Below, piece after piece: positions 15,591 through 32,536 of a DNA stretch of 64,000 nucleotides (positions are counted from its first letter, which is position 1; each line of letters starts with the position of its first letter). The notes under the pieces are model-generated. The model was not told where the DNA came from and did no database searches. It saw nothing but the letters and a program-made list of their open reading frames with translations. Position numbers and translations under genes: made by a program. The DNA comes from Tachypleus tridentatus (lineage: Eukaryota; Arthropoda; Merostomata; Xiphosura; Limulidae), in contig NC_134825.1 of assembly GCF_004210375.1 (NCBI RefSeq), forward strand, positions 65,091,558-65,155,557, read 5' to 3'.

Positions 15591-16040
15591 TCATGAATAC
15601 TCTGCCTAAACAATCTATCAAAGAAAAGCATAAAGTATTTATAATGACTGAATAATATATTTAAATAGCTCAAATGATGAAACAGCGTAAAATGTTCATG
15701 ACTTCAAGACTGCATATTACAATAAAATAGCTGAAATATTTAAGTTGAAATTCACGTGATGACTAATCAAAACACTATGAAATAAATTATTTTAATTATT
15801 CTAAAACAATTAAGAAATGTAACGCAAAATTAGGTCTAGATAGAATAATTTTATTCTTAATATATGCATAACGTAGATGAATATTTCGTATGAAGTTATA
15901 ATTACATATACTAGAACCCAAACTTGAAATTGGGAAAGGACTGGGTGATATAAAATTACCTATTTAATGAAGGATATAATTCCATTGTACTGGTTTAAAA
16001 CTGACATCGACTTATCTTGAATTTACAATTAACTGTTACG

Positions 16041-16344
16041 TTTGTTTGTTTGTTTGGGAATTTCGCACAAAGCTACTCGAGGGCTATCTGTGCTAGCCGT
16101 CCCTAATTTAGCAGTGTAAGACTAGAGGGAAGGCAGCTAGTCATCACCACCCACCGCCAACTCTTGGGCTACTCTTTTACCAACGAATAGTGGGATTGAC
16201 CGTCACATTATACGCCCCCACGGCTGGGAGGGCGAGCATGTTTAGCGCGACGGGGGCGCGAACCCGCGACCCTCGGATTACGAGTCGCACGCCTTACGCG
16301 CTTGGCCATGCCAGGCCGAAACGTAAACGCCCCCGGGGGGGCTC

Positions 16345-16378
<34 letters not shown>

Positions 16379-16404
16379 TTAGCCGATTGCGCCACGGAGG
16401 CGTC
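16041..16404 (-). mobile_element. Composite SINE-A with extra tRNA-Asn head
   Basis: Read on the minus strand: a tRNA-Asn-like sequence, a linker of about 10 bases, the usual SINE-A head (GGCATGGCCAAGCGCG, then GGGTTCGCGCCCCCG), the SINE-A body and an AAACAAACAAAC-type tail. The whole unit is flanked by the 11-bp duplication taactgttacg at 16030-16040 and 16405-16415, so it inserted as one element. Other copies here lack the tRNA-Asn part. Confidence 0.9.
16328..16401 (-). tRNA. tRNA-Asn(GUU)-like sequence, part of a composite SINE
   Basis: 74 bases folding as a full cloverleaf. The acceptor stem is GCCTCCG/CGGGGGC (one G-U pair), the A box TGGCGCAATCGG, the anticodon loop CTGTTAA with anticodon GTT, and the B box GGTTCGAGCC. 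The only flaw is a T-C mismatch in the T stem. It closely resembles metazoan tRNA-Asn. Because it lies inside the target-site duplications of a SINE, it is probably a retroposed SINE head rather than a working tRNA gene, although Pol III promoter boxes are intact. Confidence 0.7.
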
Positions 16405-16544
16405 TAACTGTTACGAGTTATGTATTCACTTTTCATTTTCTATTTGAAAATACCTAATATTTTGTTTCACTTGTGGAAAGCTGTTTCGATATATCTTAAT
16501 AAACTTCGCTTTTCGATACTGTTTTCCTTTTTACAGGTTTAATT

Positions 16545-16802
16545 AGGTCCAGCATGGCCAGGTGGTTAAGGCACTCGACTTGTAATATGAGGGTCGCGGG
16601 TTCGAATCCCGGTCGCACCAAGCATGCTCACTCTTACAGCCATGGCGGTGTAATAATGTGACTATCAATCCCACTATTTGTTGGTAAAGAGTAGCTCAAG
16701 ACTTGAAGGTTGGTGGTTATGACTAGCTGCCTTCCTTCTAATCTTTCACTGCTAAATTAGGGACGGTTATGTGTAGCTTTGCGCGAAATTCAAAACAAAC
16801 AA
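16545..16802 (+). mobile_element. SINE-A, full length
   Basis: Intact A and B boxes (ATGGCCAGGTGG, GGTTCGAATCC) and a short deletion in the 3' body. Target duplication acaggtttaatt at 16533-16544 and 16803-16814. Confidence 0.92.
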
Positions 16803-16936
16803 ACAGGTTTAATTTTAAGTAGCGACCAAAAACACATTAAAAATGAATAAATTCACATTTTTGGTGCTGTTGTTAAATACTTTAAAAAAAAACAAAGCAC
16901 AGCAACAGGTCTAGAGTTACTCATCTGTTTTAAGAG

Positions 16937-32258: not shown

Positions 32259-32536
32259 TGTTTGTTTGTTTTTGGAATTTCGCACAAAGCTACTCGAGGG
32301 CTATCTGCACTAGCCGTCTCTAATTTAGCAGTGTAAGACTAGAGGGAAGGCAGCTAGTTATCACCACCCACCGCCAACTCTTGGGCTACTCTTTTACCAA
32401 CGAATAGTGGGATTGACCGTCACATTATACGCCCCCACGGCTGGGAGGGCGAGCATGTTTAGCGCGACGCGCGCGAACCCGCGACCCTCGGATTACGAGT
32501 CGCACGCCTTACGCGCTTGGCCATGCCAGCCCAGAA
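32259..32536 (-). mobile_element. SINE-A, full length, 'ACGCGCTTGG' head subtype
   Basis: tttgtttgtttttggaattt through to gcttggccatgccagccca. Target duplication ttcacatgga at 32249-32258 and 32537-32546. It shares the unusual head sequence of the composite at 16 kb but lacks the tRNA-Asn portion. Confidence 0.92.

Follow-up and report, generated by a model that had tools for sequence, protein, structure and literature searches.

Template switching by LINEs onto small RNAs is established, double switches included (PMC2104539). U6/L1 and similar chimeras, like the WEIRD-MgSINE and WEIRD-MgSINE-MGL elements of Magnaporthe, consist of two or three RNAs fused within one short duplication, in some cases by double jumps (PMC2104539). 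Chimeras of tRNA and LINE-1 are likewise inserted jointly and carry target duplications (PMC13174262), and one potentially true case of the small RNA U6atac before an Alu has a duplication of 14 bases (PMC4476161). For the PittSINE of passerine birds, a template switch from SINE to tRNA has been proposed to explain a new head (PMC5729268), and for HaSE3 of Helicoverpa armigera the proposed switch leads from a tRNA-derived SINE RNA to 5S rRNA (PMC3272025). The gain or exchange of SINE heads has so far mostly been inferred from finished families. The Twin SINE of Culex is a single family with two tRNA-related units, and the title of its description proposes an origin from a dimeric tRNA precursor. 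Searches of one open-licence library returned no account of unspliced pre-tRNAs being fused serially to intact SINEs.

The window examined here is a 64,000-nucleotide stretch of the genome of the horseshoe crab Tachypleus tridentatus (contig NC_134825.1, positions 65,091,558 to 65,155,557 of the forward strand). Coagulogen, a protein peculiar to horseshoe crabs, is encoded in this genome: Pfam PF02035 finds matches in it but in 0 of 14 control genomes, and one exon agrees with the solved coagulogen 1AOC at 48 of 51 aligned residues. In excerpts of the horseshoe-crab genome paper, SINE repeats are given as a small share of the repeats (PMC7815833). The element of interest occupies 16030-16415 on the minus strand, where a tRNA-Asn(GUU) precedes a full SINE, called SINE-A here, for whose body string a search of the open-licence literature returned no match. 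Read in its own direction, the element opens with the 5′ copy of an 11-bp target-site duplication (CGTAACAGTTA in the minus-strand reading; 16405-16415), and the composite insert proper then runs from leader to SINE tail (16041-16404). It comprises a pre-tRNA 5′ leader, GAC (16402-16404), which is also found in the tRNA-Asn array genes; the 74-nt tRNA with its discriminator base (16328-16401); a 9-nt trailer, TTTACGTTT (16319-16327); a junction base C (16318); and SINE-A itself (16041-16317), consisting of a tRNA-like head, a body, and an (AAAC)n tail. The identical 3′ copy of CGTAACAGTTA lies at 16030-16040. The junction base is assignable to neither part and is variable among copies; the variation of the base before GGCC is a point against the explanation favored below. 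By DNA search, subfamily classes, and tree position, the SINE belongs to the youngest SINE-A subfamily. SINE-A has the features of a SINE, namely a boxed tRNA-like head (boxes by loose pattern, in the window copy at 16301-16308 and 16254-16264), a body, a simple tail, duplications, and many dispersed copies.

The original prediction described this element as a composite with one enclosing duplication, and direct reading, ARAGORN, Rfam, and the duplication itself (11/11 positions identical; p = 0.009 against 352 mismatched flank pairs) bear it out. ARAGORN places a tRNA-Asn(gtt) at 16327-16402 as its single call within the whole window, and the Rfam model RF00005 matches 16328-16401 with 54.4 bits (E = 6e-9). 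The claim of a complete cloverleaf stands as far as these two programs call it, but the lowest-energy fold of leader plus tRNA-Asn differs from a cloverleaf (z = -1.45), and the tRNA departs from array gene L021 at two bases (D-arm G to A, T-arm A to C). Matches to the predicted A and B boxes are present in the extra head (16383-16394 and 16339-16349, by pattern only). What had been taken for a linker of about ten bases is 3′ flanking sequence that belongs to the tRNA gene itself and extends to its T-run (in the gene, GTTTACGTTTT). Because one perfect 11-bp duplication surrounds the tRNA-Asn and SINE-A jointly, the two were inserted as a single unit. A duplication of the SINE's own at the tRNA/SINE junction, as nested or sequential insertion would leave, was sought in the window copy and is absent. 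As predicted, a comparison SINE-A of the same subtype on the minus strand (32259-32532) lacks the extra head; its likely duplication, TCCATGTGAA (by eye), ends approximately 4 nt before the SINE head. An older SINE-A in opposite orientation (16552-16805) adjoins the composite.

Far from being the isolated rarity first envisaged, the window copy has relatives across the 2.17-Gb genome. A DNA search with the whole element found four more full-length tRNA-Asn/SINE-A copies that are 91-93% identical, and searches with the front part and the junction added others that are more diverged, truncated, or cut, for at least ten copies including that in the window (L001-L005, L020, L032, L036, L054, and L088). 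One of these, L036, retains just nine SINE-A bases after the tRNA-Asn. Duplications could be placed for seven of the ten, and all differ. L002 is a chain of three, in which an older SINE-A head (ending CATGCTTTTTTCTC), a pre-tRNA-Asn with leader, and a young SINE-A all lie inside one perfect 11-bp duplication; L076 is possibly another. Searching for the junction had been suggested as a check. In the genome, 1790 sites lie within three mismatches of the head-containing junction pattern, mostly by chance according to our estimate. Among 30 loci examined at up to three mismatches from the junction pattern, four carry a full tRNA-Asn (all already known, one being the window copy), one a truncated tRNA-Asn (L054), two other tRNA-like pieces (L053 and L060, without isotype name), and 23 none.

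The source genes are readily recognized. The tRNA-Asn genes are clustered on C5 and C7, mostly 2.47 kb apart. When leader, tRNA-Asn, and trailer alone were used as the query, 28 of the 40 places listed fell into these clusters, five other matches ended before the trailer does, and seven dispersed copies kept the trailer. All seven continue into a SINE 5′ end, six into SINE-A and one into another SINE. This last copy, L118 on C9, joins its tRNA-Asn to the different SINE within a perfect 11-bp duplication (by eye). Nearly all listed tRNA-Asn genes carry G at the D-arm base that follows a GGCTA-like stretch; the chimeras L001, L004, L005, L032, and L036 often have A, T, or C there, perhaps reflecting variant source genes or copying errors. 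Long-period tandem arrays are common among the tRNA genes (G000 C5, C7, C8, C13, and C19), with a computed period of 2.47 kb for Asn and, from listed coordinates, periods of approximately 1.06 kb for Lys, 3.43 kb for Leu, and 3.86 and 4.87 kb for Tyr.

Numerous other tRNAs have been joined to SINE-A in the same manner. We searched the genome for a B box followed by 10-40 bases and a SINE-A head, which yielded 107 sites (100 listed) with a GGCYCGG head and 42 with a GGCYTGG head; the reversed pattern gave none. The upstream piece is of tRNA type at 22 of the 100 listed GGCYCGG sites and at 11 of the 42 GGCYTGG sites, or 33 in all, by a sorting done partly by script and partly by eye (33 of the listed GGCYCGG sites were re-sorted by eye). 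One C3 pair among the 22 is identical in the matched stretch and probably represents a duplicate. We inspected 21 of these 22 sites and all 11 of the others. Besides Asn, the donors are tRNAs for Val, Glu, Ile, Asp, Ala, Lys, Arg, Leu, Tyr, and Ser, where Leu, Tyr, Ser, and the 5′-truncated pieces were named by us from their sequences. Truncated pieces of this kind occur, for example, at L072, L078, L084, and L108, and also at L060, which has no isotype name. Two damaged copies that ARAGORN calls Lys (L080) and Pyl (L106) are read here as Glu. L077, which has a long flanking duplication, and L083 were set aside as not being tRNA chimeras.

The remaining 78 listed GGCYCGG sites have upstream SINE heads of A type (24) or B type (46) or are unassigned (8). 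Fifteen SINE-head sites were fetched (12 of the 24 A-type and three of the 46 B-type sites), and since they were picked mainly for a T-run, their outcome is not a rate. They reveal that short SINE-head transcripts, often ending in a T-run, have been joined to SINE-A as well. Three loci, L100, L101, and L102, share a near-identical SINE-B-like head transcript ending GATATCTTTT, GATATCTT, or GATATCTTTTG, each with its own duplication; the head could represent a separate short RNA made by Pol III. At L118, L129, and L130, tRNA-Asn, another tRNA-like 3′ piece, and a SINE-A head, respectively, are joined to a second SINE family with a 3′ end similar to that of SINE-A. A candidate dimer family in another SINE (25 sites) was rejected, as 10 of the 12 fetched loci proved to be one triple chimera in a larger repeat. 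This chimera (L119-L128) is composed of a truncated SINE, a SINE-A head, and a full second SINE; its flanks are shared among copies, and it therefore spread with the repeat and not as a SINE.

If a single tRNA-Asn/SINE fusion had founded a mobile dimeric SINE family, dispersed copies with differing duplications might be expected. The ten Asn/SINE-A copies are indeed dispersed, the duplications placed for seven of them differ, and the copies L004 and L005 may even be sisters (support 95/67). However, the SINE parts of the Asn copies are spread over the age classes of SINE-A that we designate oldest, intermediate, young, and youngest. On a tree of 68 SINE-A bodies with eight usable Asn copies (on which L077 is labelled 'chim' though set aside), the Asn copies need seven changes, near the mean of 7.7 for shuffled labels, and strongly supported branches alone force at least three. 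A single clade of the eight fusions is rejected by the AU test (p = 0.0001), other tRNAs fuse alike, and tRNA-Asn is also found on another SINE. A single dimeric family is thus refuted and in our view retains hardly any probability. The junction search, while it did recover copies with independent duplications, therefore did not reveal the mobile dimeric family that such copies had been expected to prove. Small sub-clusters are possible. A clade of the five intermediate-age Asn copies (p = 0.155) and a clade of L001 and L002 (p = 0.097) were not rejected, and given also the pairing of L004 with L005, some Asn copies may share an origin. Regardless, by our count, at least three independent Asn fusion events have occurred, L118 included, and probably more. 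Neither a single event nor a mobile dimeric family accounts for the tRNA-Asn/SINE-A composites. Because the SINE parts belong to different subfamilies, one clade is rejected, and other tRNAs and a second SINE are involved, the fusions are best regarded as recurrent.

The extra pieces match tRNA precursors. The Tyr chimera L114 agrees with a tRNA-Tyr gene over 98 of 98 nt, including the 3-nt leader, the intron, and the trailer, and it ceases to be homologous to the gene after the final T of TTTT. The Leu chimera L079 keeps its intron; its T-run numbers six, against four (TTTT) in the gene. Homology ends after TT of the gene's TTTT in the Lys chimera and after TTT in the Asn chimera. The 3′ flank of the tRNA-Asn genes is GTTTACGTTTT (GTTTATGTTTT in one of 22), and beyond the TTT the chimera switches to SINE and differs from the gene. 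For the four tRNAs compared with genes (Asn, Leu, Lys, and Tyr), the T-run at the junction is the Pol III terminator, and two different transcripts are fused directly in the same sense, as in chimeric retrogenes. No CCA follows the discriminator base at any of the tRNA-type junctions inspected by eye. Leader, intron, and trailer match wherever genes were compared, and as judged from these alignments the donors were unprocessed pre-tRNAs and not mature tRNAs.

The same junction recurs across the collection. A T-run lies within 3 nt of the junction at 28 of the 33 tRNA-type sites (18 of 22 and 10 of 11, the GGCYTGG sites being flagged by eye), placing the donor side of the join at the 3′ end of the donor RNA; five junctions are without a T-run. 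Among the 46 sites with an upstream B-type SINE head, seven have a T-run (Fisher p = 4e-10), a control that shows only that a T-run is not general before SINE-A; three of these sites (L100-L102) are themselves chimeras. A sample of unselected SINE heads, five in number and including the window chimera, is too small as a T-run control.

The original prediction offered read-through of a tRNA gene into a SINE as one source of the composite. If a SINE had inserted behind a tRNA gene and Pol III had passed the terminator, retrotransposition of the two-headed RNA would also place tRNA and trailer before the SINE, with one duplication around both. This scenario requires independent SINE insertions at, or a few bases from, the terminators of approximately ten kinds of tRNA, and the T-run itself should end the transcript. 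Moreover, none of the 22 fetched tRNA-Asn array genes has SINE-A in the approximately 1.5 kb behind it, nor do the short flanks of one Leu, one Tyr, and one Lys gene contain it. Read-through is unsupported by these findings, and we consider it very unlikely.

Target duplications indicate that joint insertion is not peculiar to the window copy. In an anchored automated search, for which 352 mismatched pairs served as the null (99th percentile 10, maximum 16), scores of at least 9 (null p of 0.031 or less) were reached by 12 of the 26 located chimeras, always 5′ of the tRNA, and by 11 of the 18 located monomers, always 0-3 nt from the SINE head. In L088 among the chimeras and in eight monomers, this search did not locate the SINE. 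Most of the 18 located monomers had come into the sample through a TTTACGTTT-like flank, and two of them, L051 and L052, share flanks. Duplications of 7-13 bp, placed by hand and checked by script, enclose both parts at 26 of 38 tRNA-type loci (Asn, 7 of 10; others, 13 of 19; a later set, 6 of 9) and at 10 of 15 SINE-head loci, counts that leave out L118, L129, and L130. Of these 36 duplications, 27 are perfect and nine have one mismatch. By hand, no duplication could be placed at 12 of the 38 tRNA-type loci, and L107, L109, and L111 are without one. Among the 15 SINE-head loci, two are plain nested insertions (L092 and L096), and three (L093, L094, and L105) are ambiguous and were not counted as enclosed. 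The true nested cases look unlike the window copy.

Given these observations, we favor recurrent end-to-end template jumping, with a probability of roughly 80%, and regard the window copy as one product. A LINE enzyme would copy the SINE-A RNA to its 5′ end during target-primed reverse transcription. The reverse transcriptase would then jump to a pre-tRNA-Asn that is still unprocessed, landing on its U-tailed 3′ end, and continue copying to the 5′ leader. Insertion of the joint cDNA as a single unit would leave one target duplication. This process would have taken place with other pre-tRNAs and with short SINE-head transcripts too, and from at least one other SINE family. Both the join by an enzyme jump and the LINE as source of the enzyme are inferred. 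In the chimeras read, the SINE side of the join is its 5′ end, the donor side is at or near the U-run, and the donor's own 5′ end is the leader or a truncation. The pattern demands a SINE 5′ end and a donor B box, so the pattern searches cannot show that jumps are limited to these sites; joining at the SINE 5′ end was tested freely by the search with leader, tRNA, and trailer alone (7 of 7).

The closest competitor is RNA ligation, whereby a ligase joins pre-tRNA and SINE RNA end to end before copying and insertion. It yields the same products, such that sequence alone cannot separate the two, and for U6/LINE-1 chimeras it has been discussed alongside one other route (PMC13174262). Template jumping accounts in one step for junctions between SINE 5′ ends and donor U-runs, whereas ligation adds a step, and the L002 chain of three would take two ligations. 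The ends normally found on Pol III RNAs, a 5′ triphosphate and a 3′ hydroxyl, are poor substrates for the known ligase route. Ligation appears improbable, if less so than the other alternatives.

Beyond the individual loci, we lean toward the view that this LINE/SINE system regularly jumps end to end from the SINE 5′ end to Pol III transcripts that are nascent and unprocessed, at their U-tails. The insertions would then constitute a fossil record of the pre-tRNAs, with leader, intron, and trailer, that were present at sites of reverse transcription; jumps could chain, and a standing route to new SINE heads would exist. These are single fusions whose parents remain readable, so that donor gene, terminator stop, leader, and intron can be aligned, and template-jump fusions of this kind show how SINEs could pick up new heads. 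They also open to test the question of whether LINE enzymes meet precursors or mature tRNAs, and hence where in the cell insertion takes place. A caution is that tRNA predictions in such genomes include retroposed copies joined to SINEs.

Chimeric retrogenes are known, and what is new here is the breadth of the phenomenon, the use of unspliced pre-tRNAs as donors, and an acceptor SINE that is intact. In contrast to the Magnaporthe and U6/L1 chimeras (PMC2104539), copying in the horseshoe crab begins on an intact SINE and reaches its 5′ end; approximately ten tRNA species take part, and among the donors are unspliced pre-tRNAs, with the join at the T-run. The tRNA/LINE-1 chimeras number 21 loci and typically contain half tRNAs, mostly antisense to LINE-1, whereas the SINE-A fusions are in sense orientation and several hold full-length precursors (PMC13174262). 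U6atac/Alu is described as rare (PMC4476161), yet the horseshoe crab has 33 tRNA-type sites from two pattern searches. PittSINE exchanged its old head for a new one and gave rise to a family (PMC5729268); SINE-A keeps its old head, and no single Asn-headed family has formed. Finally, the switch proposed for HaSE3 resulted in a 5S-headed family (PMC3272025), whereas SINE-A carries tandem heads drawn from many donors.
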